Virus record (IMG/VR): IMGVR_UViG_3300045003_000097
Location: 1-34,250 of that record
From: a virus
Length of the DNA stretch: 34,250 bases
Direction: 5' to 3' (one strand)
Each line of letters starts with the position of its first letter. The first letter of the stretch is position 1. The notes under the pieces were generated by a model, which saw only the letters and a program-made list of their open reading frames with translations, did not search any database and was not told the origin of the DNA. Positions 13,987 through 28,686 of the stretch are shown piece after piece. Both the position numbers and the translations under genes were made by a program.

Positions 13987-15536
13987 GCTGCCTTCGGCCC
14001 CCACAGACCGTCCTCCCCCCGGACCCAGGGGCTCTTGTCTGCCCACGTCTTACCCAACCCGACCACGTCAATTTCCACAAGTAAGGGGACGATCAGCCAG
14101 TCCCACGCCTTGCGGATATCGGAAGTCATGACCCGTTCGATCAGGTCCAGGACCTCCTGTAACTCCTCCGGGGGTACGTCCAAAAGTAGGCAATCATGGA
14201 TTTGTCCTACGATCAAACTCTTCAGTCTCCTCTTCCGAAGGATCTTCTGGATGCGGATCAGGGACCAGAGCAGACAGTGGAAGGCAGGTCCCTGGACCGG
14301 GTCGTTCAGCAGGTTGTTCCGGCTGCATAGGCCCCCCTTGCCCCAGACCACCTCGAAGCCCGTCACCAGGGAGGACCGGCCCTCCCGCTCGTAGTCGGCG
14401 AACCTCTGCTCCTTGCCGGCCGCAAAGACCGGGAACCGCCGGTAGAAGTTCGCCTCCACCGCCTTGACGTGGGCCTCGTAGGAGCCCGGCCGGGGGTCCC
14501 GCTTCGGGTCGAAGTCTCCCGGGGAGCGGATGCCCTGCCTCCGGAGCCACCTCGCCACCAGGGTCTCGTCGTCCTTCATCTTGACCCCGGGGATGGCCTC
14601 CCAGATGTTCCGGGCCATCTGCAAGTAGTAGGAGCCGTACAGGGTGGGGAACACGAACTGGTTCTTGGCCAGGTAGCGCATCTGCTTCGACACCTGGGAC
14701 GGTTCGCATAGGAACAGCTCGGCCGCCGAGTCCCGGTGGATATCCTTGCTGGGGTCCGAGGCATAGGCCACCATCTCCGGGTCCTTCCAGACGCAGGCCG
14801 CGATCTTGAACTCCATGGCCCCGAAGTCTGCCTCTACCAACAGCCGGCCCGGCCGGGGGACAAAAGCCTTCCTGATCAGGGGTCCGATCTTAGAATCCCG
14901 GATGGGGATGTTGTGCAGGTTCGGTGAGTCTGATGAGGACCTGAAAGTACGGACCGTATTCAGGTTCTCCGTGGGGTGCAGGAACCCGTCCACCACCTCC
15001 CGCCGGACCCCCTCCAGGTAGGTAGACTTGAGCTTCTTTAGCCTCTCCACCGCGAGCAGGGTCTTGACGAAGGGCAGGTCCACGGAGGCCAGGGCCGCCT
15101 CGTCCGTGGACGGCTTACCGTCCGGGTAGCGGTCCGTGGGGGCCGTCCGGAACGGGCAGGGGTAGCCCAGCCTCTCGTACAGGACCACCCCCAGCTGCTC
15201 CCGGGAGCCCAGGTTGGTCTTAGCCCCGAACGCCTTCCGCCAGACCCCGTAGGTCGGGTCCCTCCGCAGCTCCTCCTGGAGGGAGCGGATCTGGTCCCCC
15301 ACCTCGACGATGGTCCGGTCCAGGTAGTCCACGTCGATGGCGATACCGGCATCCTCGACCTCGGCCAGGGCCAGGGTCCCCTCTAGGAGCAGGTCCACGG
15401 CTTCCAGGGTAGCGGTCACTCTCACCTCCTCGGGCCGGACGGGTACTCGTATCTCATCCGAATCCGTACGGAAACTCCTACCCTCTATGCCGATGCTCCG
15501 GAGGACCTTCCTCACTACTCTTTCCGATACCCCCAC
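13983..15536 (-). CDS. family A DNA polymerase lacking an exonuclease domain
   Basis: 517 aa from GTG 15536, with GGGGAG just upstream. Thumb region near 105-175 (STDEAALA, LKKLKSTYLEG), then SSSDSPNLHNIP at 200-211, motif A VEADFGAMEFKIA at 234-246 with catalytic D237, motif B around RYLAKNQFVFPTLYG at 287-301, and motif C QIHDCLLLDVP at 445-455 with D448. Only about 65 residues precede the thumb, so there is no room for a 3'-5' exonuclease; a fitting one is encoded at 17739-18947. Motif B departs from the usual KxxxNFGxxYG: one extra residue and Pro instead of Gly. The first 20 residues match a nested protein at 26454-27005. Confidence 0.88.
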   Translation of the reverse strand: MGVSERVVRKVLRSIGIEGRSFRTDSDEIRVPVRPEEVRVTATLEAVDLLLEGTLALAEVEDAGIAIDVDYLDRTIVEVGDQIRSLQEELRRDPTYGVWRKAFGAKTNLGSREQLGVVLYERLGYPCPFRTAPTDRYPDGKPSTDEAALASVDLPFVKTLLAVERLKKLKSTYLEGVRREVVDGFLHPTENLNTVRTFRSSSDSPNLHNIPIRDSKIGPLIRKAFVPRPGRLLVEADFGAMEFKIAACVWKDPEMVAYASDPSKDIHRDSAAELFLCEPSQVSKQMRYLAKNQFVFPTLYGSYYLQMARNIWEAIPGVKMKDDETLVARWLRRQGIRSPGDFDPKRDPRPGSYEAHVKAVEANFYRRFPVFAAGKEQRFADYEREGRSSLVTGFEVVWGKGGLCSRNNLLNDPVQGPAFHCLLWSLIRIQKILRKRRLKSLIVGQIHDCLLLDVPPEELQEVLDLIERVMTSDIRKAWDWLIVPLLVEIDVVGLGKTWADKSPWVRGEDGLWGPKAA

Positions 15537-15736
15537 GGGCTCCCCCCTTTCTTTGCCGTCTCCCGGCCGTCCCGGGAAATGAGCCGGCACCAGACGGAAA
15601 ACGCCAGCAGGAAGGTCCCCCTGGGGTAGTTCCCGGAGTGGGCCTCCTGCATGGCCGCCACGAACAGGACCAGGCTCCCGACCCCTAGCAGGAGTGGGCA
15701 AACTTCGTCCACTACCTTCAAAACGGTCCGGATCAC
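15515..15736 (-). CDS. small membrane protein (73 aa)
   Basis: GTG 15736 overlaps the thyX stop (GTGA) and follows GGGAGG. A hydrophobic stretch VCPLLLGVGSLVLFVAAM (about 11-28) and a second moderately hydrophobic one near 45-55 suggest one or two membrane spans; the C-terminus is basic. The 3' end overlaps the polymerase start by 22 bases. Function unknown. Confidence 0.55.
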   Translation of the reverse strand: MIRTVLKVVDEVCPLLLGVGSLVLFVAAMQEAHSGNYPRGTFLLAFSVWCRLISRDGRETAKKGGSPWGYRKE

Positions 15737-16509
15737 GGGGCCTCCCTCCCGCACTCGCAGAAGGCCCGGTAGGTCAGGGGCCAGTGCTCGGCGAACGGCC
15801 CCTCGCACTTCCGGGCCGCCGCCTCGATCTCATAGAGCGGATAGCTGGGGTGGTTAGCCCCGGGCTCGTGGGTCCGGAGGGACAGGAAGGCCATCATCGA
15901 GCGGGGGTTACACGTCACCCAGCAGGAGGAGTAGACCCCGACCGGCAAGCAGTCCCGGGCCAGGCCAGGGTCAATCCCCAGGGCCAGGTTCTCCTCGTAC
16001 TTCCGGTAGGCTAGCTCGTAGGACTCCCGGAGGTTGTCGCACAGGACCCGGTAGACGGAATCCCCGTAGGACGGCCGGGTCATACCCGGGGGATACCTCT
16101 CGTCGATGGTCAGGAACTTCGGCCGCCCCGGCTTCCAGTCATCTACCTTGAGCATCGGCCGGTCGCGGGGAGGGACGTAGAAAACCGGCTCCAGGACCGA
16201 GTAACGCCCGCTCTGCTCATTAAAAGACTGGACCCTGTGCCTGTGCCACTCCCTCCAGACCAGGATCGGAGCGTGGACGAAGAACGTCATAGACCCGTGT
16301 TCAAAACAACTACCGTGCTTCATCCTCATGAGGTAACGGATCAGACCGTAGTTATCCTCGGCCCTCCCGGGGTCAGAGAAGGCCAGGGCCTCCTCCCCGG
16401 AGACGGAGACCTTAGCCGCCGCTATGACGGAGTAGTCCCCCCCGACCTGCTGGACCAGTCGGACGGTAATGTCACTAGTACACCGGACCTCAGTCTTCTG
16501 GTCACCCAC
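15733..16509 (-). CDS. thyX: flavin-dependent thymidylate synthase
   Basis: 258 aa from GTG 16509, with GGAGGAAGGGAA before it. The ThyX signature RHRxxSxNEQSGRYS is complete at residues 90-104, and the FAD/dUMP-binding helices continue with CNPRSMMAFLSLR near the C-terminus. ThyX makes dTMP from dUMP with methylene-tetrahydrofolate, FAD and NADPH. Phages carry it to supply dTTP. Given the likely thymine/cytosine hypermodification genes at 21-26 kb, a pyrimidine-supply link is possible but not shown. Overlaps the DUF1643 gene by eight bases. Confidence 0.93.
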   Translation of the reverse strand: MGDQKTEVRCTSDITVRLVQQVGGDYSVIAAAKVSVSGEEALAFSDPGRAEDNYGLIRYLMRMKHGSCFEHGSMTFFVHAPILVWREWHRHRVQSFNEQSGRYSVLEPVFYVPPRDRPMLKVDDWKPGRPKFLTIDERYPPGMTRPSYGDSVYRVLCDNLRESYELAYRKYEENLALGIDPGLARDCLPVGVYSSCWVTCNPRSMMAFLSLRTHEPGANHPSYPLYEIEAAARKCEGPFAEHWPLTYRAFCECGREAP

Positions 16510-17298: not shown

Positions 17299-17504
17299 GA
17301 CTTCTTCTCCTTCCTCCACATACCCAGGATATGATCGACGGCGTTCACGGGGGTCTCGGGATCTTTTACGTCCAGCACCCACTTCAAAGCTACTTTCAGC
17401 CCGATCAAAATACCCCGCAGTTCCCCATCGGCCTTCTCCCATTTGGCCTTGGAGAACTCCAGCAAATCTATCAGGGCTTCCAGGATCTCCCTCTCGGTCT
17501 TCAC
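17295..17504 (-). CDS. small helical hypothetical protein (69 aa)
   Basis: GTG 17504 with GGGGAG upstream. Helical, with LEALIDLLEFSKAKW and GILIGLKVALKWVLDV segments; basic C-terminus MWRKEKKS. Probably a small soluble binding protein. Stop overlaps the next ATG. Confidence 0.55.
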   Translation of the reverse strand: MKTEREILEALIDLLEFSKAKWEKADGELRGILIGLKVALKWVLDVKDPETPVNAVDHILGMWRKEKKS

Positions 17505-17508
17505 GGCC

Positions 17509-17721
17509 TCAGTTCTCCCCCACGTTCTTCCGGGAATCCTCGATATCCCGGGCCTTCTTTAGGAGCAATCCGGCGACGTTCCGGGCCTCCTCCGGGGTAA
17601 AATGAATCCACCACTTCGGATCGGTGAACTGGACAGAGACATAGTTATAATCTTCAGTAATTCCGACGATTAAAGTCCCCGGACCCCGCACCTCATCAAC
17701 CGGATGTTTCTCCCGATCCAT
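17509..17721 (-). CDS. small hypothetical protein (70 aa)
   Basis: ATG 17721 is chosen over a longer frame because GGGGGG lies six to eight bases before it. The beta-rich first half (TLIVGITEDYNYVSVQFTD, then WWIHFTPEEARNVAGLLLKKA) and the closing helix resemble small phage proteins with an HFTPEEA segment. Not assigned. Confidence 0.55.
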   Translation of the reverse strand: MDREKHPVDEVRGPGTLIVGITEDYNYVSVQFTDPKWWIHFTPEEARNVAGLLLKKARDIEDSRKNVGEN

Positions 17722-17738
17722 AATTCCCCCCCCTACCC

Positions 17739-18947
17739 CTATAGTCGGAAGCCCATCTCTTCCATCTGGAGCCTGGCCAGCTCCCACTCCAGCAGGGAGT
17801 CGGCCCCGCAGTACGCGAGAAGTTTATCCATGGCCACCTGGCAGACCCGGTTCCGGGCGTTGGAGTTGGCCGCCTTCAGGTAGGGGGCTACCTGCTCATC
17901 GTAGGGGCCGACTCCCAGCCGGGCAAACGCCTGGAACTTCAGGCCGGTGATCCCCGGCCGGTTGTCGAGGACGTGCGCGGCCAGCATCGTGTCCCAGACC
18001 CAGTTCCGGACCCGGAGGCCCAGGACGGCCATGGAGTACCGCTGTTCATACTTGACGTTCGCCCCGCACTTGGGGACCTCGGACCGGAGGAACTCTTTCA
18101 TGGCCCGGACCGCCTCCCCCACCCAGGGGAAGGCTATGGTCGTCTCCCCGTCGCTTAGGGAGCAGCAGACAATCCCGGCCTCCGGCCCGTCCGGCTTCAG
18201 GGTAGACGCCTCGTAGTCAAAGGCCGTCAGCCGGCTCCCCCCCGCCAGCCTCCGGATCTCAGAGGCCGCCTCCTCCGGGTCGTAGAGGCAGCGGACCTGT
18301 CGGAGGGGGTCGGGGACCGGCTCCGGCCACGGTCTCCCGGAGCACTCCCCGGCTGTCCTCAAATGGTCCCGGAACATCCTCTCCAGGAGGGCGTACTCCC
18401 GCTTGCCCTGGGAGCGGAGCAGGAAGGACGGGTGCCAGGTGGGGCAGACCCAGGCGTTGACCTTCCGGGCCGGGACCTTCCACTTCACCCACCGGCCCAC
18501 CGGCCCCACGTCCTCCTTCCACAGCCACCCTACGACGCTCTGGACGGCCCCGGCCCCCAGCAGGATGATCGTCTCCGGCCCCAGCTCCTTGATCGCGTTC
18601 ACGACGTTCGGTCGGCAGTGGAAGACGGCCTTCTCCGGTAGGGCGTTGTGGGGTGGCCGGCAGATCGCCGAGTTCGTCACCCAGCAGTCCCGGAACAGGT
18701 CGATGCCCGCGGCTGCCAGGTGGCCCTGGAGGTACTGGCCGGAGGGCCCCACGAACGGCCTCCCCTGGGAGTCCTCCTCTGCTCCCGGTGCCTCTCCACA
18801 GACCAGGATCTTCCGCCGGCCCTCCCCGGCCACCGGCATCTTAGGGGACTGGCAGGTGAGGTGGAGCCGGCACTTGTGGCAGGCCGGCTGCAAGGGGACC
18901 CGGGCCCGGACCGTCTGGAGGGAGGAGGCAAGGAAGAAGCCGGCCAT
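17739..18947 (-). CDS. fusion of family 4-like uracil-DNA glycosylase and PolA-type 3'-5' exonuclease
   Basis: 402 aa from ATG 18947. N-terminal UDG domain (about 20-200): C23, C26, C96 and C111 fit the 4Fe-4S ligand pattern of family 4 UDGs; GEAPGAEED at 51-59, GRPFVGPSG at 62-70, TNSAICRPP at 91-99 and HPSFLLR at 172-178. C-terminal exonuclease (about 235-402): exo I FDYEAST with D244 and E246, exo II GANVKYE at 295-301, where the usual Asp is Glu, and exo III YCGAD with Y379 and D383. The second domain equals the proofreading domain missing from the polymerase at 13983-15536. The UDG removes uracil from DNA; the fusion would join uracil detection and proofreading. Confidence 0.8.
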   Translation of the reverse strand: MAGFFLASSLQTVRARVPLQPACHKCRLHLTCQSPKMPVAGEGRRKILVCGEAPGAEEDSQGRPFVGPSGQYLQGHLAAAGIDLFRDCWVTNSAICRPPHNALPEKAVFHCRPNVVNAIKELGPETIILLGAGAVQSVVGWLWKEDVGPVGRWVKWKVPARKVNAWVCPTWHPSFLLRSQGKREYALLERMFRDHLRTAGECSGRPWPEPVPDPLRQVRCLYDPEEAASEIRRLAGGSRLTAFDYEASTLKPDGPEAGIVCCSLSDGETTIAFPWVGEAVRAMKEFLRSEVPKCGANVKYEQRYSMAVLGLRVRNWVWDTMLAAHVLDNRPGITGLKFQAFARLGVGPYDEQVAPYLKAANSNARNRVCQVAMDKLLAYCGADSLLEWELARLQMEEMGFRL

Positions 18948-18951
18948 TCCG

Positions 18952-19170
18952 TCAGCCCCCGATGGTTTCCGTGTCCAGGTACAGCTGGTCCACCTCATCC
19001 AGGTCCCCCCACCACTGCTCCAGGCAGTCCCCGCAGACCTCCCCCGGCCGTGGCTGCTCTCCGGGAGTCAGGAAGACCTCCTGCCGGCAGCGGGGGCAGT
19101 GGACTACCTCCAGGTGGTCTATCCGGCCATTCTGATCCAGGTAGCGGCCGGCGTCGTCAGACAGGATCAT
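18952..19170 (-). CDS. zinc-ribbon protein (72 aa)
   Basis: ATG 19170 overlaps the upstream stop (ATGA); GAGGGG precedes it. CPRC at about 25-28 and CGDC at about 46-49 form a ribbon, followed by an acidic tail (WWGDLDEVDQLYLDTETIGG). It ends four bases before the UDG-exonuclease start and may be part of the same complex or simply co-transcribed. Confidence 0.6.
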   Translation of the reverse strand: MILSDDAGRYLDQNGRIDHLEVVHCPRCRQEVFLTPGEQPRPGEVCGDCLEQWWGDLDEVDQLYLDTETIGG

Positions 19171-19487
19171 GTTCTTTTCCCCTCCTCTAGCAAGACCTCC
19201 AGACCCTTCCTCAGCTGCTCCTCCGTATCTAGACGGCACTCGGCAACCAGGGCACGGGCCTGCCAGTAGTCCACCTTCCCCTCCAGGGGCCAACGCTTCC
19301 AGGCCGGGACCCGGACATAGGCTTCCCCGCCGCACTCCGGGCAGTAGCCGGGCTTGCCCTTCTCCCGGCCGGGGAGGCTGTGGCCCTGGCAGCAGGAGCA
19401 GTTCGCCTCCACCACCCGGTCCCCCTCGGCCACCAGCTTCTCGGCCTCGGCGAACCGGGAGTAGTCGAGGTCCTTCCGGAGGATCAT
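19167..19487 (-). CDS. zinc-ribbon protein (106 aa)
   Basis: ATG 19487 with GGAG about eight bases upstream. CSCC near 30 and CPECGG near 49 form a zinc ribbon in a mainly charged protein; the second half is helical (WQARALVAECRLDTEEQLRKGL). It is the first gene after a 115-base gap with a TATATT -10-like box but no clear -35. Confidence 0.6.
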   Translation of the reverse strand: MILRKDLDYSRFAEAEKLVAEGDRVVEANCSCCQGHSLPGREKGKPGYCPECGGEAYVRVPAWKRWPLEGKVDYWQARALVAECRLDTEEQLRKGLEVLLEEGKRT

Positions 19488-19562
19488 TCGTCTTCTCCAC
19501 TACTCGTCTAGCCAACCACTTCCACCATACTTCCAGCACTCCCACTCAAATATAACCGTAAT

Positions 19563-19585
19563 GAGCAGGGACAGAACTTCTGCTC
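19563..19585 (-). other. small hairpin in the 19.49-19.60 kb gap
   Basis: GAGCAG / CTGCTC, a perfect six-base stem, 17 bases after the stop of the 69-aa gene. No T-run follows, so it is not a standard terminator; it could protect the mRNA end. Confidence 0.3.
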
Positions 19586-19602
19586 CGAACCTTCCTCCGA
19601 CC

Positions 19603-19812
19603 TCAGATACCAGGGCGGCGGACCCGTTTACCATGGACAAAACGAACGAGATAGCAGGGGACCTCCCCGTAATCGGACCGGGGCAGGTTGTAGACCTTGA
19701 GCCCGGCCTCCTCCATCTCCCTCCGGACGACCTCCGCCACGTCCGGGTTCTCCTCGGGGGTCCCCCTCCGGGCCAGGTTCGGGAAGACCCTCCTGGCCGG
19801 GTTCGCTCTCAT
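19603..19812 (-). CDS. small hypothetical protein (69 aa)
   Basis: ATG 19812; the frame is open further upstream where GGAGGGAGG lies but without a usable start, so the start is uncertain. The middle is helical and charged (NPDVAEVVRREMEEAGLKV) and the end is beta-like and basic (YLVRFVHGKRVRRPGI). First gene after the clamp terminator. Not recognised. Confidence 0.5.
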   Translation of the reverse strand: MRANPARRVFPNLARRGTPEENPDVAEVVRREMEEAGLKVYNLPRSDYGEVPCYLVRFVHGKRVRRPGI

Positions 19813-19867
19813 GGCGATATAGTTCGACGGGTTTACAGAATCTTCCCTCCCTCCAATGAGACTAGAT

Positions 19868-19940
19868 AAAAAAGGTGCCCGGCCCCTGGCAACCCATCCC
19901 GATACTGCCCAGATACCGGGACGGCGAAACGGGGCCGGGC
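19868..19940 (-). terminator. branched terminator after the sliding clamp
   Basis: Minus strand outer stem GCCCGGCCCC / GGGGCCGGGC (10 perfect pairs; 19931-19940 with 19877-19886) encloses a second hairpin TCCCGGTAT...GTATCGGGA with two G-T pairs, and is followed by ACC and TTTTTT (19868-19873). Terminator confidence is high; the inner arm is unusual. Confidence 0.8.
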
Positions 19941-19949
19941 ATCAGCAGC

Positions 19950-21080
19950 CTACTCCGACTCCTCCTCGTGGTTCCCCACCGGGACCCGCTCCTTCTTCCT
20001 CTTCTTCGGATGGGGGGCCGGCTCCCCGTCCTCCTCCGGGGGCATCTCACCCTCCGTATTGCTCCCCTCCGGCAGGGTCAAACATGAGACGAACACGTAG
20101 GAGCCGGAGACCACTTTTAGCCGCTCGGCCGAGATCAGGCAGTCGGAGTGCTTCTTCACCAGGTCCATGAGGATCTGGGGGGCCACCAGGAACTTGATGG
20201 CCGGGCCGGCGTACTTCACCTTCCGGTCGCTCCGGTACCAGCCCGTGATACCTGTCCCCTTCAGGGTCAGGCGGCCGGGCTTCAGCTCGATGAGCACCGC
20301 GTCCCCCTCGGCGTTCTCGGAGGTGAAGACCTTGGCCTTGTCGGCCTCCTCCGCCAGACCCTTGGGGAGCATGGCCGGCTCGCCCCCCACCTCCAGGATC
20401 TCCCCCAGGTCCGGGAAGTCGTTCTCGAAGTACCGGCGGCAGGACAGGACCAGCTTGGCGGGGGAGCGGAAGTGGAGCCAGGTCTCGGTCTCGGCCACCT
20501 CGGTCATGCCCAGCCCCGCCACGTGCTTGACGGCCGACTGCCTCACCAGGGTGGGCTTGGCGATGGGGGTCTTCAGGTTCCAGCGGCACAGTTGGTAGTT
20601 ATCACAGGCCTCAATCCAGTCCGGGGTCAGGTTCACGCAGGTCAGGGCGAACTGGGACTCGTCCCGCCCGGCACAGGCCTGGACCACGGACACGGCGTCG
20701 GCGAACTCGGGGGGCAGGGCCTTCCACCTCTTCGGGATCTCCACGTCCTTGATGGGCAGGAGCACGTCAGCCTCCATCCGCAGGCCGCAGGCCCGCCGCT
20801 TGCCGGTCAGGACCAGCTCCCCCTCCCCGGCCGAGACCTCCAGCTCATCCTCGGGAAGCTTGCGTAGGATGGCCAGGAGGGGCTCGGCCTGGACGGCTCC
20901 CGTCAGCTCCTCCTCCAGCCCCGAGGGGCAGTGGCAGGCCACCTCCTCGTTGTAGGCGAACACCTTACCGGACTGGAAGACATAGCAGCTGCTCTGCTCA
21001 ACGATCTCCTTCTTCGAGACCCCGGGCAGGACGGACTCCAGGGCGCGGAGGAAGGTCTCCCTGCTGACGTAGGATGGCAT
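19950..21080 (-). CDS. DNA sliding clamp (DnaN/beta-like)
   Basis: 376 aa from ATG 21080, five bases after the upstream stop. Length and pattern match beta clamps: a first domain with LRALESVLPGVSKKE and LLAILRKLPEDELEVS, a middle domain with KHVAGLGMTE, and a C-terminal domain with GWYRSDRKVKYAGPAIKFL and LPEG near the end in place of the usual MPMR. The last about 35 residues are a charged extension (KKRKKERVPVGNHEEESE) not seen in cellular clamps. It tethers the polymerase to DNA and works with the loader at 8415-9389. Followed at once by a strong terminator. Confidence 0.75.
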   Translation of the reverse strand: MPSYVSRETFLRALESVLPGVSKKEIVEQSSCYVFQSGKVFAYNEEVACHCPSGLEEELTGAVQAEPLLAILRKLPEDELEVSAGEGELVLTGKRRACGLRMEADVLLPIKDVEIPKRWKALPPEFADAVSVVQACAGRDESQFALTCVNLTPDWIEACDNYQLCRWNLKTPIAKPTLVRQSAVKHVAGLGMTEVAETETWLHFRSPAKLVLSCRRYFENDFPDLGEILEVGGEPAMLPKGLAEEADKAKVFTSENAEGDAVLIELKPGRLTLKGTGITGWYRSDRKVKYAGPAIKFLVAPQILMDLVKKHSDCLISAERLKVVSGSYVFVSCLTLPEGSNTEGEMPPEEDGEPAPHPKKRKKERVPVGNHEEESE

Positions 21081-21085
21081 AGGTA

Positions 21086-22225
21086 TCACGTTCCTTTCTG
21101 CTTTGGTTTTCTGCGGACCAGCTCCATACCGTAGTCGTCGTCTCCGACCCTCCTCACGATGCCGGGCCGGAGGCGGAGCCGGTTCCGCCTAAAGGGCGAG
21201 TAGTCCACCAGGTGGTGCCAGCGGTTGAACCGCCAGACTACCTTCACCACGTCCGGGTGCTGGTCCCGGAGGGACTCCGCGAAGGCCAGCCGGTGGTCAT
21301 CCGTCTTGTACACGGTGTCGGTGTTCCCGCCCTTCATGGCCCGGGCCCCCTTGCACCCGGCCGTGTCGAGCTTCCTCATGAGCAGGGCCCGGAAGAGCAA
21401 CGTGACGTACCCGTCCTTGAGGACCCTCAGGGACAGGTCCGTATCCTCGTTGTACTTCCCCCGCCAGCGGTAGGGCAGGGACGTGTCGATCAGGATGCAG
21501 GAGTAGACCCGGCTGTTGAGGAGGAAGGGGGACAGCCGCGGCTCCCGGTCCATGACAAAGCCCACGTGGTGGGGGCCGGCCAGGGCCACGTTCTCGTAGC
21601 GGTCCACGAAGTCCTCCATGGCCAGGAAGAACCTCCCCCCGTGTACGGACAGGCGGCGGTTCTGGGTAGTCCGGTAGAAGTTGCGGATATTGTCGTCAAC
21701 TACCCAGTGCCTCCTGTGGCCGTTCTCCCTGGCCCACTCCCAGATGAAGTTCCGGGCCGGGATCGAGCCCTGGCCCAGGTCGTGGAAGGGGAGCTTGACT
21801 ACCTTGTCCTTCCCCAAGTGGCGGCAGTACCTCTTGTACTCCGTTTCCTCCACGAAGAACCTGTGGCTGACCCCCAGGCGGTCCAGGGCCCTCCCGGTAG
21901 TCTGGCAGTCCCAGCGGCCCTTGCTGGGGATACAGACCGGGTAGCGGCTATCCGCCTTGGGGCCGTCCCAGTAGAACTCGCCGCCGGAGAGGACCCCCTG
22001 GTCCGGGTACCAGGCCGTGTCGGAGCGGGCCGTCACGCGGAGCCCGGTCACCCTCGCGAACTCCTCCACGTCCTCCTTGGTCATGAAGTTGACCGTGATC
22101 GCGTAGTTGGGCCGGGCGTTGCCCATGGCGAAGCTGGGCATCCCCCACCACTCGGTCCGCCAGTCCGGCTCCAGGTCCAGCAGGCCCATCCTCGGGGGGT
22201 GCGTCTTCCGGGGGGGAACCTCCAT
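21086..22225 (-). CDS. TET-associated-type GT-A glycosyltransferase, copy 1
   Basis: 379 aa from ATG 22225, after a tandem GGAGGTA repeat that supplies ribosome sites. Glycosyltransferase core: YPVCIPSKGR at 95-104, LGQGSIPARNFIWEW at 150-164, the metal-binding HWVVDDNI at 173-180, EDFVDRYENVALAGPH at 204-219, RWRGKYNEDTDLSLRVLKDGY at 253-273 (outline), GGNTDTVY and a WHHLVDY-type segment near 340. This matches the TAGT family described by Iyer and colleagues (2013) for phage base hypermodification, which is predicted to sugar-modify oxidised pyrimidines in DNA. Residues 1-90 form an extra module (ITVNFMTKEDVEEFARVTG). The closest relatives are the two copies downstream in the window; copy 3 has 60-70% identity by eye. 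Confidence 0.75.
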   Translation of the reverse strand: MEVPPRKTHPPRMGLLDLEPDWRTEWWGMPSFAMGNARPNYAITVNFMTKEDVEEFARVTGLRVTARSDTAWYPDQGVLSGGEFYWDGPKADSRYPVCIPSKGRWDCQTTGRALDRLGVSHRFFVEETEYKRYCRHLGKDKVVKLPFHDLGQGSIPARNFIWEWARENGHRRHWVVDDNIRNFYRTTQNRRLSVHGGRFFLAMEDFVDRYENVALAGPHHVGFVMDREPRLSPFLLNSRVYSCILIDTSLPYRWRGKYNEDTDLSLRVLKDGYVTLLFRALLMRKLDTAGCKGARAMKGGNTDTVYKTDDHRLAFAESLRDQHPDVVKVVWRFNRWHHLVDYSPFRRNRLRLRPGIVRRVGDDDYGMELVRRKPKQKGT

Positions 22226-22230
22226 AGTGC

Positions 22231-22260
22231 TCTACCTCCTACCTCCTACCTCCTACCTCT
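22231..22260 (-). repeat. tandem TAGGAGG repeat acting as multiple ribosome sites
   Basis: On the minus strand GGAGGTA is repeated about four times between the stop of the 188-aa gene and ATG 22225. Each unit contains a near-perfect Shine-Dalgarno sequence. Copy number could vary by slippage and tune expression of copy 1. Confidence 0.7.
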
Positions 22261-22825
22261 ACTTCCGGAAGCCGAACCCGACCGGCTTCTTCGTCCTCCG
22301 CCCCCGGTAGGCGTGCAGCTTGCGGGCAAGGCGGCCGGCCTTACCCAGGGTCGTCAGGGAGACCCAGACCCAGTTCCGGGCATACTCGGGGCCCCACCTC
22401 TCCCGGAAAGCCGCGAAAATCGCCTCAAACTCCGGGGTGTAGGGCAGCTGGTCCCTGGTCAGGGGCTGGGCGTCGTAGGCTTCCACGAGGTGGCGGACCA
22501 TGGCCGGGGACAGGTTCGAGCCGCGGGCCGGGCCCCGCCTCTTCCCGGAGGTCCTGATCTCCACCCCGCCGACCCGGTAGTGCTGCTTCCTCAGGTAGAG
22601 GCAGCGGTAGTAGACCCCGGCCTCCGTCCCCCAGGGGTGGCCGGGGTGGGCCGCCCGGTAGTCTATGGCCAGCTGCCCCAGGTCCGGGGCATAGGCCCAC
22701 CGCTCCGGGTCGCCGGGGATCTCGGCGGAGTAGACGGCCAGCCAGGCGTCGTCCCACCAGTGTCCTTCGGGATCTCGGGCCACGGGAGTCTTCTCCTTTC
22801 CACCTTCGCTGGTACGGCCGGTCAC
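22259..22825 (-). CDS. hypothetical protein inside the glycosyltransferase cluster (188 aa)
   Basis: GTG 22825 overlaps the stop of glycosyltransferase copy 2 (GTGA) with GGAAGGG before it, so the two are co-translated. Tryptophan- and tyrosine-rich N-terminal half (HWWDDAWLAVYSAEIPGDPERW, shown in part), no metal motif, no membrane span; C-terminus strongly basic (RGRRTKKPVGFGFRK), as in DNA-binding tails. Not recognised. Its place between two glycosyltransferases suggests a part in the same modification. Confidence 0.65.
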   Translation of the reverse strand: MTGRTSEGGKEKTPVARDPEGHWWDDAWLAVYSAEIPGDPERWAYAPDLGQLAIDYRAAHPGHPWGTEAGVYYRCLYLRKQHYRVGGVEIRTSGKRRGPARGSNLSPAMVRHLVEAYDAQPLTRDQLPYTPEFEAIFAAFRERWGPEYARNWVWVSLTTLGKAGRLARKLHAYRGRRTKKPVGFGFRK

Positions 22826-23952
22826 GAACCCTTCCGGACCAGCTCCATACCGTAGTCGTTATTCCCCTCCACCCTCACCACCCCCGGTCTAGGAACCAGC
22901 CGGTTCTTCGCGAACGGGGCATAGTTCACCTCATGGTGCCACCTGTTAAACTTCCAGACTACCTTTACTACGTCCGGGTGCTGCTCTCTTAAAGATTCGG
23001 CGAAGGCGAGACGGTAGTCCCCGGTATTGTAGACCGTATCCGTATTCCCGCCCTTCATAGGTTTGTTATTCCTAGACCCCGCCGTACCGGGTTTACACAT
23101 ACATAGGGCACGGAATAGAACGGTACAGTAGCCATCCTTGAGCAGGCGTAGGGATAAATCGGTATCCTCGTTATAACGGCCCCGCCACCTATAGGGGAGT
23201 AACGTATCGAGTAGAATAAAAGAGTATACCCTACTATTTAATAAGAATGGGGTAAGTCTCTGGTTCCGGTCCCGGACAAAGTTCCTATCGTGGGGCCCCG
23301 CCATAGCGACGTTCTCGTACCTATCCACGAAGTCCTCCATGGCCCGGAAGAAACCCCCGCCACGAACTAATAACTTCCGGTTATTCGTCGTCCGGCAGCA
23401 GTGTTTGATATTATCGTCCACTACCCAGTGCCTCCTGTACCCCCTCTCCTTACACCACTCCCAGATGAAGTTTCTAGCCGGTATGGAACCCTGTCCAAGA
23501 TCATGGAAGGGGAGTTTGACTACCTTCTCCTCTCCGAGATGCCGACAGTATTCCTCATACTCGGTCTCCTCCACGAAGAAGCGGTAGCCGACTCCGAGCC
23601 GGTCCAAAACTTTCCCGGTCAGCTGGCAGTCCCAGCGCCCCTTGCTGGGGATGCAGACGGGATACCTGGAGTCGGTCTTGGGTCCGTCCCAGTAGAACTC
23701 CTCTCTCGACAAAACTTCCTGATGGGGATACCAGGCCGAATTGGACTGAGTTCTAATTCTCAAACCGGCTACTCTAGAGAACTCTTCCATGTCCCCCTTC
23801 GTCATGAAGTTAATGGTTATCCGGTAGTTAGGTAGGGTATCTTCCATAGAGAAACTCGGCATCCCCCACCACTCGGTCCGCCAGTCAGGATCTATGCACA
23901 GGAACCCCCTGTCCCGGATATGTGACCTCTTCTTACGGGGGGGAACATCCAT
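22822..23952 (-). CDS. TET-associated-type GT-A glycosyltransferase, copy 2 (A/T-rich)
   Basis: 376 aa. It keeps all core motifs of copy 1: YPVCIPSKGR, LGQGSIPARNFIWEW, HWVVDDNI, the RWRG-YNEDTDLSLR-LKDGY block and GGNTDTVY. After VVDDNI it has KHCCRTTNN where the other copies have RNFYRT, a local change near the likely substrate site. Codons are clearly A/T-richer than in copies 1 and 3 (about 43% GC against 67% over a matching 60-base stretch, hand-counted), although the proteins are alike. ATG 23952 follows GGAAGAGGTAGG. Probably adds a sugar to a modified base in phage DNA; substrate unknown. Confidence 0.75.
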   Translation of the reverse strand: MDVPPRKKRSHIRDRGFLCIDPDWRTEWWGMPSFSMEDTLPNYRITINFMTKGDMEEFSRVAGLRIRTQSNSAWYPHQEVLSREEFYWDGPKTDSRYPVCIPSKGRWDCQLTGKVLDRLGVGYRFFVEETEYEEYCRHLGEEKVVKLPFHDLGQGSIPARNFIWEWCKERGYRRHWVVDDNIKHCCRTTNNRKLLVRGGGFFRAMEDFVDRYENVAMAGPHDRNFVRDRNQRLTPFLLNSRVYSFILLDTLLPYRWRGRYNEDTDLSLRLLKDGYCTVLFRALCMCKPGTAGSRNNKPMKGGNTDTVYNTGDYRLAFAESLREQHPDVVKVVWKFNRWHHEVNYAPFAKNRLVPRPGVVRVEGNNDYGMELVRKGS

Positions 23953-23961
23953 ACCGCAAAC

Positions 23962-25083
23962 CTACCTCTTCCGGACCAGCTCCATACCGTAGTCGTTCTC
24001 ACCTACTGTCCTCACGATACCCTCCCGGAGCCGCAGCCGGTTCCTCCGGAACGGTGCGTAGTCTACCTTGTGGTGCCAGCGGCCGAACCTCCACACCACC
24101 TCCACGCAGTCGGGGTGCTGGTCCCTCAGGGACTCCGCGAAGGCCCGCCGGTAGTCCCCGGTACTGTAGACCGTATCCGTGTTCCCGCCCCGCATGGGTC
24201 TCACGCCCCGGGAGCCGGCCGTGTCCGGCTTATCCATGCACAGGGCGTTAAAGAGTAGGGTCGCGTACCCGTCCTTGAGCAGGCGGAGGGACAGGTCCGT
24301 GTCCTCGTTGTAGCGGCCCCTCCACCTGTGGGGCAGAGAGGTGTCCAGGAGGATACAAGAGTAGACCCGGCTGTTGAGCAGGAAGGGGGACAGGCCCGGG
24401 TTCCGGTCGTCCACGAAGGCGATGTCGTGGGGGCCCGCCATGGCGACGTTCTCGTAGCGGTCCACGAAGTCCTCCATGGCCCGGAAGAACCCGCCCCCGC
24501 GGACCGTCAGCCTCCTGTTGCCGTTCGTCCGGTAGAAGTTACGGATGTTGTCGTCCACGACCCAGTGGCGTCCGTATCCCCTCTCCCTGCACCACTCCCA
24601 GATGAAATTTCTAGCTGGTATGGACCCCTGCCCTAAATCGTGAAAGGGGAGCTTAACCACCCTCTCCCGGCCGAGGCTAGAGAAGTAGTCCGCGTACTCC
24701 GTCTCCTCCACGAAGAACCTATAACTTACCCCGAGCCGGTCCAGGATCTTCCCGGTCAGCTGGCAGCCGGCCCGCCCCTTACTGGGGATGCAGACCGGGT
24801 ACTTAGAGTCAGTCTTCGGGCCGCCGTAGTAGAACTCTCCGGCCCGGAGCCGGTCCCGGGCCGGGTACCAGGCCGAGTCCGACTTCGCCGTCACCCGCAG
24901 GCCGGAAACCTCGGCGAACCGCTCCACGTCACCCCTAGTCATGAAGTTCACCGTGATAGAGTAGCCCGGCCGGGCGTCCCGCATGGAGAACGCGGGCATC
25001 CCCCACCAGTGCTTCCTCCAGTCCTGTTCCAGGTCGAGGAGGCCGGACGCCTTCGGGCGGATATCCTTCGGCGGGACCTCCAT
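23962..25083 (-). CDS. TET-associated-type GT-A glycosyltransferase, copy 3
   Basis: 373 aa from ATG 25083, two bases after the stop of the UDG-like gene, whose end supplies GGAGGGGG. The same core motifs as copies 1 and 2 are intact, including the DDN metal site and the NEDTDLSLRLLKDGY block, so all three look active. Differences cluster at residues 1-95 (FYYGGPKTDSKYP) and in the sugar- or base-contact loops. First of the three in transcription order, with GC-rich codons like its neighbours. Confidence 0.75.
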   Translation of the reverse strand: MEVPPKDIRPKASGLLDLEQDWRKHWWGMPAFSMRDARPGYSITVNFMTRGDVERFAEVSGLRVTAKSDSAWYPARDRLRAGEFYYGGPKTDSKYPVCIPSKGRAGCQLTGKILDRLGVSYRFFVEETEYADYFSSLGRERVVKLPFHDLGQGSIPARNFIWEWCRERGYGRHWVVDDNIRNFYRTNGNRRLTVRGGGFFRAMEDFVDRYENVAMAGPHDIAFVDDRNPGLSPFLLNSRVYSCILLDTSLPHRWRGRYNEDTDLSLRLLKDGYATLLFNALCMDKPDTAGSRGVRPMRGGNTDTVYSTGDYRRAFAESLRDQHPDCVEVVWRFGRWHHKVDYAPFRRNRLRLREGIVRTVGENDYGMELVRKR

Positions 25084-25084
25084 C

Positions 25085-25531
25085 CTACCTACCCCCTCCG
25101 CACCTGCCCAGCAGCTGCCCGACCTCCGGTACGAACTCCGCCACGGCTGCCCGGGCTCGGGCTATGTTATCGGGATCGTTCCACAGCCGGCACCGCCCGC
25201 TGGGGTGGGGCAGGACCAGGGCCCTCCGGCCCCAGGAGACCTCGAACGCGGCGAACGGCCGGAACGGTACCCGGAAGGCCCCGCACACCCGGGAGCCTAG
25301 CAGTACCAGCCGGGAGTCCCGGACGCGGGCGGCCGCCTCCCGGGCCGCCTCCGTACTCCACTCCCCCACCACCAGGTTGACCCGCCGGAAGCTCCCCAGG
25401 TAGGCCCTCCGGCCCATGCCCAGGATCGCCGCGGCCAGACGGTGGCCGGAGCACCCGGCCGGGTACGGGTACAGGGCGAAGCGGGGGTCCGGGGTCCGGG
25501 TATTCGACTCGCCCACCAGGGTGGCGTACAC
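25085..25531 (-). CDS. uracil-DNA glycosylase-superfamily protein
   Basis: 148 aa from GTG 25531, chosen because GAGGAGG sits at the csrA stop just upstream. LVGESN near residue 5-11 and LPHPSGRCRLWN near 110-122 occupy the places of motif 1 and motif 2 in the UDG superfamily; LAAAILGMGRRAYLGSF and VLLGSRVCGAF lie between, as in compact members of that fold. It lacks the family 1 and family 4 signature residues, so true uracil removal is not assured. UDG-superfamily proteins occur in predicted base-hypermodification clusters, which fits the neighbouring glycosyltransferases. It may recognise or process a modified base. Confidence 0.6.
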   Translation of the reverse strand: MYATLVGESNTRTPDPRFALYPYPAGCSGHRLAAAILGMGRRAYLGSFRRVNLVVGEWSTEAAREAAARVRDSRLVLLGSRVCGAFRVPFRPFAAFEVSWGRRALVLPHPSGRCRLWNDPDNIARARAAVAEFVPEVGQLLGRCGGGR

Positions 25532-25541
25532 GGGGACCTCC

Positions 25542-25721
25542 TCAGTCCTGCTCCGGGGCCGCCTGCTGCTGGAGATCGAAGACCTCCTGCCGCTGGACGG
25601 AGACGTCCCTGGGGGCGTCGATCCCCAGCTTGACCCTGCCGTCCCGAATTTCCAGGACCTCAATACTGATGTCGGGGCCGATGCGGATGCGCTCCCGGAC
25701 CCTCCGGCTCAAAACGAGCAT
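25542..25721 (-). CDS. csrA: CsrA-type RNA-binding regulator
   Basis: 59 aa, ATG 25721 with GGGAGG four bases upstream. Full-length match to CsrA: MLVLSRRVRERIRIG at 1-15, V30-K-L-G-I-D-A-P-R-D at 30-39, VSVQRQEVF at 40-48. The RNA-contact residues L4, R6 and R44 are kept. CsrA dimers bind GGA motifs, often over ribosome sites, and block or alter translation. In this window it may act on phage mRNAs that carry the GGAGAYGATTCC leader, on host mRNAs, or both. The 5' end lies within the last 13 bases of the FkbM-type gene, so its own ribosome site is in that coding sequence. Confidence 0.93.
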   Translation of the reverse strand: MLVLSRRVRERIRIGPDISIEVLEIRDGRVKLGIDAPRDVSVQRQEVFDLQQQAAPEQD

Positions 25722-26440
25722 GTTCCCTCCCCCCTCCCAAAAATTTTCCGGTAGCCGCACGCCAGGTTCGGGGCATACCACCCCCGGGGCAGGAAGAACA
25801 CGTCCGCCGCCCCGGTAGGCCGGTCGTGTCTCTCGACCATCCCGAACTTGTTCACCGCCCGGCCGTACCCGTACCCGGAGAGGAAGTCGAACACCTCCGC
25901 CCGGGAGGAGCCCCCCCGCCTTAGGTGGCCGTCAATTACCTCCACGGCCAGGAGGGGCCTGCACTCTTCCAGCAATCTGGTCGCCCCCCTCAGGACCGCC
26001 AGCTCTCCACCCTCCACGTCGATCTTGACCAGACCGACATCTCCGTCTAGGACCTCATCGAGTCGCTCAACCCGGACCTGCTCCCTCACCCCCCTGCCGG
26101 ACGCGGTCAGGTGGCCGGTCACGGTCCCGCCCCCGACGAACTCCCCGGAGCCGCGGTAGTCCGCCAGGGCGACGGCGTGGAGCACCACGTTGGGGAGGTT
26201 CGACGTATTCTCTTCTAAAGCCGCATAGTTAGCAGGGGACGGCTCGAAGGCGTAGACCCTCCGGGCCGTCCTCTCCGCCAGGAACCGCGTGACCTTCCCG
26301 ACGTTCGCGCCGACATCCGCGCAGGCCCGGGTCGGGTCAAAGATCAGGCCGAGGTAGGCGACGAAGCCCGGGTCATAGAGCTGCGGCCCCGGGCTGTTCC
26401 ACCCGTCCTTCTCGGGGAGCTTGTAGATCCTACGGCCCAC
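25709..26440 (-). CDS. FkbM-family methyltransferase
   Basis: 243 aa from GTG 26440, after AGGGGGG. SAM-binding motif ADVGANVGKVTRFLAE at 41-56, acidic strand end VYAFEPSPANY at about 66-76, then VKIDVEGGELAVLRGA near 138-153, the standard FkbM layout. The family methylates hydroxyls on sugars and related groups. Beside three glycosyltransferases it may methylate the added sugar. The tail (APNLACGYRKIFGRGEG) is basic. Start 13 bases after the preceding gene's stop. Confidence 0.85.
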   Translation of the reverse strand: MGRRIYKLPEKDGWNSPGPQLYDPGFVAYLGLIFDPTRACADVGANVGKVTRFLAERTARRVYAFEPSPANYAALEENTSNLPNVVLHAVALADYRGSGEFVGGGTVTGHLTASGRGVREQVRVERLDEVLDGDVGLVKIDVEGGELAVLRGATRLLEECRPLLAVEVIDGHLRRGGSSRAEVFDFLSGYGYGRAVNKFGMVERHDRPTGAADVFFLPRGWYAPNLACGYRKIFGRGEGTCSF

Positions 26441-26453
26441 CGCTCTACCCCCC

Positions 26454-27005
26454 TCACTTCCGCAGGGCCTCCAGCTCAGCCGCCTGCTCCCGGGTCAGCG
26501 GGGCCGGGCGGCCGTACTTCTCGGTCTTCCCGCCGCTCCACTCCGTCTGGAGGGTCTTGTCCCGGTGGAAGACCACCCCCAGCCCGGCCAGGGCCTTGCG
26601 GACCTCGTCCACGGACCAGCCCCTCTGGGCCATCCAGTGCACGACCCGCCGGGCGGAGTAGCCGAAGACCTTCAGGGAGGAGCGGCCCTCCCCGGCCTCC
26701 CCCTCCGGCTTCTGCTTCCCGGCTGCTCCCTTCTTCCGGCCGGACTTCTTCGGGTCCGCACCGTTCTCCCCGTCCGGGGGGGTGATGGTCAGCTCGATGG
26801 TCTGGCCCCTGTTCAGGGCGCTCGACACCTTTTTCAAAAGCTGCTTGTCCTCCGGGTCCTCCGGGGTCTTGCCCACGGCGTCCAGGATAGCCGCGAACCG
26901 CTCCCGGTTGTTCAGCTTGGCCAGGAGCTTCTTCTGGGTCCAGTCCTCCTCCTTGACGCCGATGCTCCGGAACATCTTCCGGACAGCCTTCTCGCTTACG
27001 TTCAT
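26454..27005 (-). CDS. possible nested gene (183 aa) inside the 486-aa ORF
   Basis: ATG 27005, in frame, is preceded by GGGAGAGGGAGGG about six bases upstream, a strong ribosome site following a Gly/Pro-rich linker. Its start MNVSEKAVRKMFRSIG matches the start of the polymerase, MGVSERVVRKVLRSIG. This supports a self-contained unit, made alone or as part of the longer protein. Confidence 0.45.
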   Translation of the reverse strand: MNVSEKAVRKMFRSIGVKEEDWTQKKLLAKLNNRERFAAILDAVGKTPEDPEDKQLLKKVSSALNRGQTIELTITPPDGENGADPKKSGRKKGAAGKQKPEGEAGEGRSSLKVFGYSARRVVHWMAQRGWSVDEVRKALAGLGVVFHRDKTLQTEWSGGKTEKYGRPAPLTREQAAELEALRK

Positions 27006-27914
27006 GGTCGTCCCTCCCTCTCCCTTCGGGGTTTCCTCTCCTCCGGGGGAACCGCTCCCCGCGGACTCCCCGTTATTATCGGGAGGGGCTGCCGGATTTT
27101 CTACGGGAACTACACCGGATTCCGGCTTGTCCCCGTGCTCCGCCCGGGGCCGCCTGTGGAGGCCGTTCTCCCGGGCCTCCCGGACTACCTCCTTACCGTT
27201 GCCCGCGGGGGGGGCCTCCGGGTGGTGCTGGGCGTGGTAGATCTCCACGGCTGCCACGGCGGCCTCCAGGGTGCGGAGGTTATTGTCGATCTCCCGCTCC
27301 TTCGCCCCGGGGGCGTCGATCCGGGCCGTGGCCAGGAAGCGGGGCTCGGGACCCCCCACCCGGTAGACCTTGTATCCGTGGGCCTGATCCTCCCACACGT
27401 GGTAACGGGTGCCGTTGGACAGCTCCCCGGAGTGGGGCTGGCCCAGCCGGACAGCCTTGCTCCCCTGGAGGGCCAGGTTCTTGGCATATTCGGACGCCTT
27501 CGCCAGCCCGGCCAGGGTGACGTCGGCCGGGACCAGCCCGGCCTCTGCGAGGATCTCCGGGTAGTTGGCCCACGCGGGGAGGTTGGCCCCGTGCTGGGCG
27601 ATGAGCCGGTTCAGGGTGTCCTGGACGGCCCTCTTGTGATGTTTCTTCGTGGAGGCCGGGGCATACCCACCGTTGGAGTTGCCGGGCCGGTAGACGGGTT
27701 GGGCGGGAGGAACAATCGTGGACGGGGACCCCATTGTACCCTCGGTACTTGCTAGCTCCGGGGGAACTGCCCCCGGGTCAGGGGCCGGGGCTCCGTCGCC
27801 CTGGCCCGATGCCTCGCTCGGATTCAGGACGGTAGTTTCCTCCTGGGGACTGGTTAGCTTCTCCACGGCTCCTGCTTTGGAGCCGGAGGATGACCTGGTA
27901 CGCTTCTTACCCAT
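26454..27914 (-). CDS. large two-part hypothetical protein with possible DNA-binding C-terminus (486 aa)
   Basis: ATG 27914 follows GGAGACGATTCCC. Residues 1-95 are low-complexity and basic at the start (KKRTRSSSGSK); 95-235 look folded (HHKRAVQDTLNRLIAQHG, then beta-rich KVYRVGGPEPRFLATARID). A disordered linker follows to about 303. The C-terminal 183 aa start with MNVSEKAVRKMFRSIG and end in a segment like a winged helix (RRVVHWMAQRGWSVDEVRKAL). The C-terminal part may be made separately from ATG 27005. Not recognised as a known family. Opens the modification block in the direction of transcription. Confidence 0.6.
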   Translation of the reverse strand: MGKKRTRSSSGSKAGAVEKLTSPQEETTVLNPSEASGQGDGAPAPDPGAVPPELASTEGTMGSPSTIVPPAQPVYRPGNSNGGYAPASTKKHHKRAVQDTLNRLIAQHGANLPAWANYPEILAEAGLVPADVTLAGLAKASEYAKNLALQGSKAVRLGQPHSGELSNGTRYHVWEDQAHGYKVYRVGGPEPRFLATARIDAPGAKEREIDNNLRTLEAAVAAVEIYHAQHHPEAPPAGNGKEVVREARENGLHRRPRAEHGDKPESGVVPVENPAAPPDNNGESAGSGSPGGEETPKGEGGTTMNVSEKAVRKMFRSIGVKEEDWTQKKLLAKLNNRERFAAILDAVGKTPEDPEDKQLLKKVSSALNRGQTIELTITPPDGENGADPKKSGRKKGAAGKQKPEGEAGEGRSSLKVFGYSARRVVHWMAQRGWSVDEVRKALAGLGVVFHRDKTLQTEWSGGKTEKYGRPAPLTREQAAELEALRK

Positions 27915-27950
27915 GGGAATCGTCTCCTTCGTCAGAAAGGAATCATCTCC
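27915..27950 (-). promoter_or_regulatory. double GGAGAYGATTCC leader before the 486-aa gene
   Basis: Two copies: GGAGATGATTCC (27939-27950) and GGAGACGATTCC (27916-27927), the second ending two bases before ATG 27914 and containing the ribosome site. Each has GGA and TCC ends able to pair. GGA-to-GGA distance is 23 bases, compatible with a CsrA dimer binding both (inference). Confidence 0.6.
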
Positions 27951-28046
27951 GGGGAGGGATAGAGGTCCGGCTACTTCGCCGGCCCCCGTCCCATCCCCTT
28001 CCTAGTTAGTCGGTTTGGTCGGGGAAAAATATTTCTGAAACCCTAC

Positions 28047-28412
28047 TCAGAAGAAACGGGGGTTATCAACTGTTCCGTAATTAGCCCACTCGGGAGGATA
28101 GGGGAGGCGCCTACTCTCCTCTTCAACTTCGGCGGCCGTGGTGTCGGCCCCGTCCGTCTGGGCATCCCTCCGGCCCCCGTACCGCTTCCCCACCTCCTCC
28201 CGGAACCTGGCGGCCGAGCGGAAGGTAGTCATCCGGCCGGTCAGCAGATTAGTCACGTCAAAAACCGTGATCAGGGGCTTGACCCGACCCCTTCGGTCCG
28301 TAATTGACCCGGAAGAACTGGCCTCCCGAATCCGGTCTACCCGAACGGATACCAGCCGGCCGCTCACCTTAGCCACGTAGACCCCGCCCACCTTGATCTC
28401 ATTTTTCTTCAC
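28047..28412 (-). CDS. hypothetical protein with SH3-like beta core (121 aa)
   Basis: GTG 28412 in the leader GGAGACGATTCCCGTG. VGGVYVAKVSGRLVSVRVDRI and ITVFDVTNLLTGRMTTFRSAARF (in outline) form a beta-barrel-like core, as in small phage proteins of similar size; the tail is acidic. Upstream in-frame codons add Arg-rich sequence and are not used. Overlaps the preceding gene by 14 bases. Confidence 0.6.
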   Translation of the reverse strand: MKKNEIKVGGVYVAKVSGRLVSVRVDRIREASSSGSITDRRGRVKPLITVFDVTNLLTGRMTTFRSAARFREEVGKRYGGRRDAQTDGADTTAAEVEEESRRLPYPPEWANYGTVDNPRFF

Positions 28413-28686
28413 GGGAATCGTCTCCTTTTTCCAATATACCCTCGGCCGCCAGCCGCTCCCTCTCCCCCGGGGCAAAACGATTACCGGCTACCTCCCAGCC
28501 CCCCGCACAGGTCCGGCAGACTCCCCGGGACTTCTCGACCTCCGTAAACAAGGGGGTTCCGCAGGGCTCTGTCTCGACCGTAGTCCTCCGGATATTTTGC
28601 CTCCCCGAACTAAGGTCCAGGCTTCCGTAGGTAATAACTTTGATCCTCTGAACAGTACAATCCTGAAACCTATTCCGTTTTTTCAC
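28399..28686 (-). CDS. small protein with CxxC (95 aa)
   Basis: GTG 28686 in the leader GGAGACGAATCCCGTG. One CRTC pair near residue 57-60 plus C10 and C42 could bind a metal. Basic start, acidic end SREEK. Its final codons GGAGACGATTCCCGTGAA are themselves the leader of the next gene. No family recognised. Confidence 0.55.
   Translation of the reverse strand: MKKRNRFQDCTVQRIKVITYGSLDLSSGRQNIRRTTVETEPCGTPLFTEVEKSRGVCRTCAGGWEVAGNRFAPGERERLAAEGILEKGDDSREEK
28414..28425 (-). promoter_or_regulatory. GGAGACGATTCC leader before GTG 28412
   Basis: Copy of the shared leader, inside the 3' end of the 95-aa gene, with ribosome site GGAG. Confidence 0.55.

Follow-up and report, generated by a model that had tools for sequence, protein, structure and literature searches.

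Three tandem TAGT-family glycosyltransferase genes in a virus fragment: paralogy, partner domain and probable action on phage DNA

Sugar decoration shields phage DNA from restriction and CRISPR nucleases, and hosts in turn attack such DNA with modified-base glycosylases. In this study, we analysed a 34,250-bp virus record (IMGVR_UViG_3300045003_000097; G000), a fragment from the IMG/VR collection of about 64% GC whose main genes lie on the minus strand; it is called the window throughout. It was observed that the window harbors three intact glycosyltransferase genes of the TAGT family (GT1, GT2 and GT3) in one tightly packed gene run. They are retained in-paralogs of one TAGT gene, and we consider it reasonably probable that they are DNA-glycosyltransferases which glycosylate the phage DNA and extend or vary its glycan. 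Each copy, a predicted GT-A enzyme that carries the family's N-terminal partner domain, would depend on metal and would move sugar from a nucleotide-sugar donor onto hydroxyls of the phage's own DNA. Action at the time of replication or shortly afterwards is probable, given the single tight gene run shared with a sliding clamp. The copies would most likely differ in the donor, the linkage or the acceptor, which might be the product of the previous copy, and in this way extend or vary the glycan. The decorated DNA would better resist attack by restriction enzymes, by CRISPR nucleases and by modified-base glycosylases. The data show the family, the predicted fold, the intact motifs, the purifying selection, the in-paralogy, the gene layout and the partner domain; from them we infer the metal dependence, DNA as acceptor, the coupling to the replisome and the division of labour. 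If true, three copies suggest a more elaborate DNA sugar coat against bacterial defences. The locus and its relatives also offer material for testing, namely three sister enzymes in one phage, tandem duplications that recur, a TAGT-linked domain to which neither Pfam nor PHROG assigns a significant family, and adjoining nucleotide-sugar genes from which specific donors such as UDP-xylose can be predicted.

Family, paralogy and copy number of the three enzymes

The genes concerned are as follows.

19950..21089, minus strand: sliding-clamp open reading frame (ORF), DNA polymerase processivity factor; PHROG 947, E 2e-25
21086..22225, minus strand: GT1, TAGT-family GT-A glycosyltransferase of 379 amino acids (aa), in-paralog of GT2 and GT3; PF20691 134.8 bits, E 5e-39
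22232..22259: a 7-bp unit (GAGGTAG, minus strand) repeated perfectly four times, Shine-Dalgarno-like, directly upstream of the GT1 start
22259..22825, minus strand: orphan ORF of 188 aa lying between GT2 and GT1; it starts with GTG, overlapping the GT2 stop
22822..23952, minus strand: GT2, TAGT-family glycosyltransferase, 376 aa; PF20691 139.5 bits, E 2e-40
23962..25083, minus strand: GT3, TAGT-family glycosyltransferase, 373 aa; PF20691 125.2 bits, E 5e-36

The sliding-clamp ORF begins with GTG, and this start overlaps the stop of GT1. A profile search against TAGT, proposed in an earlier note on this DNA, placed all three copies in the family, with PF20691 scores of 125-140 bits against a curated cut-off of 27.5 bits, and that note's reading of three full-length TAGT genes with intact motifs within 4 kb is borne out. 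The unknown gene which the note had seen separating one pair is the 188-aa orphan ORF between GT1 and GT2, for which neither a significant Pfam or PHROG family nor a relative in viral contigs or phages was found. The profile of PHROG 842 ('beta-glucosyl-HMC-alpha-glucosyltransferase') also matches GT1, GT2 and GT3. No relative was found by sequence among solved structures and none on plasmids.

Both the DDN motif, putatively for metal, and the NEDT motif, putatively catalytic, are invariant across 48 aligned sequences including GT1-3, and the residues invariant among these 48 homologues are all kept in each of the three copies. An AlphaFold model of GT3 built from the same alignment reached a predicted local distance difference test score (pLDDT) of 87 and a predicted template modelling score (pTM) of 0.86. 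The model displays a GT-A fold, with the top VIA Z of 14.3 in structure comparison going to GalNAc-T2, and its structural neighbours also include the cellulose, hyaluronan and chondroitin synthases, which are processive polysaccharide synthases. Among the named viral hits, many are TAGT proteins.

Between the three copies, pairwise identity is 73-75% for protein and 70-75% for nucleotides, and the longest stretches of complete identity measure 29-36 nt. As the record is a virus fragment of the IMG/VR collection, an assembly artefact or over-called ORFs were considered; with copies differing at 25-30% of nucleotides, identical runs so short and flanking genes distinct, neither duplicated reads nor an assembly repeat explains the locus, and we regard this explanation as refuted. 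The ratio of non-synonymous to synonymous substitution rates (dN/dS) was 0.13-0.26 in all three pair comparisons, indicating that all three copies are under purifying selection. In a maximum-likelihood tree of 48 sequences, GT1-3 form one clade (support 100/98) with similar branch lengths; they are therefore retained in-paralogs rather than three unrelated acquisitions. Recent gene conversion was tried as a candidate and rejected, since the windowed proportion of synonymous differences (pS) revealed no homogenised block; its minima come from the GT1-GT3 comparison, near codons 200-260. The GC content at third codon positions (GC3) of GT2 is 0.68, the lowest of the tabulated window genes, with 0.94 and 0.89 in the sister copies, which suggests an origin of GT2 in a related phage or recombination with one.

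The earlier note also held that known phages usually have one such enzyme, and the relatives agree with it. Among the 66 records scanned with PF20691, most of them fragments, 61 had a single match, four (G005, G028, G039 and G044) had two, and the window was the only one with three. Of 506 relatives the best 80 were fetched, and many contigs are fragmentary, so the counts are not a census. A further tandem TAGT pair was noticed in L082, and Vibrio phage Kuja, a complete genome, has an annotated tandem pair. With reference to the 48-sequence tree, the pair of L077 (record G028) is an independent duplication, and the pairs of L082 and L104 share one older duplication whose two members were both kept as separate orthologues. 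The other tandem pairs, that of Kuja among them, arose separately from the set in the window. Tandem amplification of TAGT genes has thus happened repeatedly, the largest set seen being that of the window.

Instead of dividing labour, all copies might perform the same single transfer and be kept for expression level, or be transient relics left by recombination with related phages, with GT2 imported, which we hold to be possible though doubtful. The similar branch lengths and the low GC3 of GT2 fit this explanation, and redundancy stays well alive because each copy deviates at few of the positions conserved in the clade. On the other hand, dosage alone would not require identical enzymes to diverge to 73-75% identity under purifying selection. 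GT2 moreover displays a reciprocal F183C/C243F exchange that is unique to it, the 47 other sequences all lacking this combination, and the duplicate members of L082 and L104 persist as separate orthologues. Taken together, divergence under selection and repeated independent duplication make a division of labour somewhat likelier than redundancy.

Separately, slippage in the copy number of the 4x7-bp repeat could tune translation of GT1. Predictions of promoters and terminators in 17500-28600 stood at chance level.

Partner domain and gene neighbourhood

The first ~90 residues form a domain outside the PF20691 match, positioned in the window and, as a standalone ORF, in example relatives as follows.

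24808..25044, minus strand: N-terminal TAGT-partner domain of GT3 ('WWGMPxF...VNFMT.xDV..F')
23665-23913, minus strand: equivalent domain of GT2
21938-22186, minus strand: equivalent domain of GT1
L149 2905-3216: standalone partner-domain ORF
L161 2911-3210: standalone partner-domain ORF
L163 2899-3195: standalone partner-domain ORF
L087 5042-5368: standalone partner-domain ORF

This domain of ~85 aa (pattern 'MPEF...F.t..D...Fa...gq..T.kT.SiW.P') is fused to TAGT in 50 of the 87 distinct proteins of the fetched loci. In the other 37, a sensitive profile detected it in a separate adjacent ORF, upstream or downstream; the adjacency in 37 of 37 is somewhat inflated, as retrieval was biased to full-length matches. 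Fusion, together with a gene order that shifts, suggests that the domain is physically associated with TAGT. In annotated phages, the standalone domain matched only phages already TAGT-positive. Its matches to Pfam and PHROG families were all sub-threshold. Modelled alone, the domain gave a poor result (pLDDT 72, pTM 0.45) and no PDB match, though it is confident in the full-length model.

A clamp-binding-like motif was noticed in the predicted disordered N-terminal tails that precede TAGT-partner domains of some relatives, such as L010 (EQMNLFDL), L130 (KQLNLFGE) and L080 (EQLALF). Tail motifs of the Q-x-LF type were present in 16 of 53 non-T4-like relatives against 1.9 in shuffles, which ignore kinship. 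Clamp binding by these tails is put forward as a hypothesis, for which the motifs are suggestive only.

With regard to gene neighbourhood, a replication cassette of clamp, uracil-DNA glycosylase (UDG)/exonuclease, polymerase, clamp loader and RecA bears TAGT in the window and in G005, and TAGT was not detected in the same cassette of the partial relatives L172-L177. Since the cassette occurs both with and without TAGT, the gene looks like optional cargo. Across the 87 loci, the recurrent neighbours are clamp, clamp loader, polymerase, helicase and gp46/47-like genes, the names being a reading of the sequences wherever no profile was run. Within the window, UDG followed by a 3'-5' exonuclease-like domain occupies one ORF (17742-18998) and a polymerase A domain another (13986-15701), an arrangement conserved in relatives. 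A 723-aa ORF at 3502-5670 harbors NUMOD4/HNH endonuclease sequence in its N-terminal part, and homologues of the remainder occur in replication cassettes from related phages.

Genes of nucleotide-sugar metabolism, assigned by sequence similarity, were also found close to TAGT in relatives. A homologue of UDP-glucuronate decarboxylase (UDP-xylose synthase) adjoins TAGT or lies one ORF off, on either side, in L004, L005, L006, L007, L064 and L070; that of L006 (9143-10087), from the sister clade of the window, scores 406 bits to the human enzyme. A UDP-glucuronate-epimerase-like gene lies near TAGT in L133 and L124, and a GDP-mannose dehydratase-like gene in L105. Such neighbours predict donors other than glucose in relatives, including a pentose donor, UDP-xylose, in the sister clade, and the different enzymes beside the relatives' TAGT genes lend indirect support to the proposal of the earlier note that the copies may add different sugars, which stands beside its two other candidates, an oligosaccharide and different sequence contexts.

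Target and acceptor base

Further window genes that bear on the target and on DNA modification are the following.

6028-6690: Mom-family DNA modification gene; PF25680, PHROG 1384
15733..16509, minus strand: ThyX flavin-dependent thymidylate synthase; PF02511 E 6e-37, TIGR02170 (thyX equivalog model)
25709..26440, minus strand: FkbM-family methyltransferase, upstream in the GT gene run; PF05050 E 9e-21, TIGR01444

The TAGT of phages T2 and T6 adds a second glucose onto already glucosylated hydroxymethylcytosine (PMC13216743, PMC13390438), and the alpha-glucosyltransferase (alpha-GT) of T4 is reported to be associated with the replisome (PMC13216743). By analogy with these enzymes, and given that the clamp gene is overlapped here, the probable substrate of GT1-3 is nascent phage DNA. 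TAGT genes without a known first-step glycosyltransferase have been found in 288 of 753 genomes (PMC13216743).

An alternative, which we find unlikely, is that the enzymes modify a virion protein, a host surface polymer or a host factor, with the FkbM enzyme O-methylating that glycan. There is an FkbM methyltransferase upstream of GT3, and L073 has one near TAGT as well. In G005, one of the two TAGT genes follows a terminase-like gene away from the replication module, and many protein and polysaccharide glycosyltransferases are among the structural neighbours. The failure to find a base-hydroxylating enzyme in the window and 13 relatives agrees with it as well. Against it, the TAGT members of known product modify DNA (PMC13216743, PMC13390438), and both the clamp-gene overlap of the window and the replication-gene neighbours of relatives tie the family to replication. 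The FkbM enzyme is a possible sugar O-methyltransferase.

The search for the acceptor covered the window, itself a fragment, and 13 relatives, mostly fragments. No match was obtained there to TET/JBP (PF12851), the oxygenase to be expected from the name of the TAGT family, for which the positive controls were silent too, to C5-methyltransferase (PF00145), for which ten control genomes matched, or to ThyA-type hydroxymethylase (PF00303), for which nine did. A C5-methyltransferase is present near TAGT in another locus, L014. ThyX is the sole pyrimidine-methylating enzyme found in the window; it could in principle supply a hydroxymethylated pyrimidine but looks like an ordinary actinophage type. 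TAGT membership, copy number and intact motifs stand as the earlier note had them. Action on 'the modified base', which it took as given, is a plausible proposal that the three negative searches and the ordinary ThyX do not bear out.

Were ThyX a hydroxymethyl-dUMP synthase, the acceptor would be 5-hydroxymethyluracil (5hmU) and the product a base J-like glycosylated uracil, an explanation that we rate as quite improbable. In the window ThyX belongs to the same module, in L071-L073 it is two ORFs away from TAGT, and G004 has it too. In Bacillus phage SP-15, where a glycosylated hypermodified uracil takes the place of part of the thymine, one of two PF02511 proteins has been proposed as hydroxymethyluridylate synthase (PMC5977210); this precedent of two ThyX-type proteins keeps a ThyX-based 5hmU route open. 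Nevertheless, the window ThyX fits the thyX equivalog model, its nearest relatives are the Streptomyces and Gordonia phage enzymes (46%, with matches in 990 phage records), and ThyX is absent from most TAGT relatives tested.

The phage probably modifies its own DNA in other ways too, as suggested by the Mom-like gene and an N6/N4-type methyltransferase, neither of which gives an obvious hydroxyl acceptor. The Mom-family gene was not found in the 13 TAGT relatives, and the longest Mom ORF has a start overlapping a tRNA-Val gene (6611-6683), making a later start likelier. Methyltransferases related to that of the window lie near TAGT in three other lineages.

Window 11648-12649: N6/N4-type DNA methyltransferase
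L138 1985-2998: related methyltransferase near TAGT
L080 2811-3995: related methyltransferase near TAGT
L156 533-1531: related methyltransferase near TAGT

Several observations weigh against glycosylation of phage DNA by three specialised copies. An enzyme making the hydroxylated acceptor base was not found in the genomes searched, and a ThyA-family gene occurs in just 1 of 38 further TAGT-bearing contigs. The window lacks a nucleotide-sugar epimerase or decarboxylase of the kinds found in relatives. The tail motif is degenerate in GT1-3, with GLL or GFL only. The rarity with which GT1-3 deviate at positions conserved in relatives fits redundancy as well as diversification. In its most elaborate form, the favoured explanation would have a three-enzyme line building a DNA oligosaccharide at the replication fork, possibly of mixed sugars and perhaps methyl-capped by FkbM, on a hydroxyl supplied by an enzyme new to such pathways, while the sister clade xylosylates its base via UDP-xylose; we offer this scheme tentatively and expect that it is rather unlikely to hold as a whole.

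Comparison with known systems

The T2/T6-type TAGT (PF20691, PHROG 842) is like GT1-3 in family, with a near-full profile match, in its GT-A fold and in being phage-encoded. It differs in that the window has three copies instead of one and an extra N-terminal domain, and no hydroxymethylase of T-even type was found there. Sequence identity is also low, a Klebsiella phage member of the beta-glucosyl-HMC-alpha-glucosyltransferase type aligning at 19%. The tandem TAGT pair of Vibrio phage Kuja, gp33 and gp32 (NC_048827), is comparable in arrangement, and gp33 can be aligned over GT3 residues 6-370; Kuja has two copies, however, with 35.5% identity and a thyA-type gene ~6 kb upstream of the pair. 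The single-copy TAGT proteins of L004, L005, L006 and contig L138 are 64-68% identical and carry the same N-terminal domain. In L004-L006 the gene lies near the sliding clamp, as in the window, but with a UDP-xylose-synthase homologue close by, which the window does not have.

Arabinosylation in RB69/Mosigvirus gives mono- and di-saccharides on the base with two putative glycosyltransferases (PMC13390438). Those phages employ 5-hydroxycytosine made by an enzyme of the thymidylate-synthase superfamily and a sugar-nucleotide gene cluster, neither of which was found in the window. In T4, alpha-GT and the beta-glucosyltransferase (beta-GT) provide two DNA glucosyltransferases in one phage and are reported to aid against stereoisomer-specific defence (PMC13216743), though they have the GT-B fold and belong to a family unrelated to GT1-3. 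In summary, TAGT as a phage DNA-glycosylation gene type is already known, and what is new here is its triplication and its partner domain.

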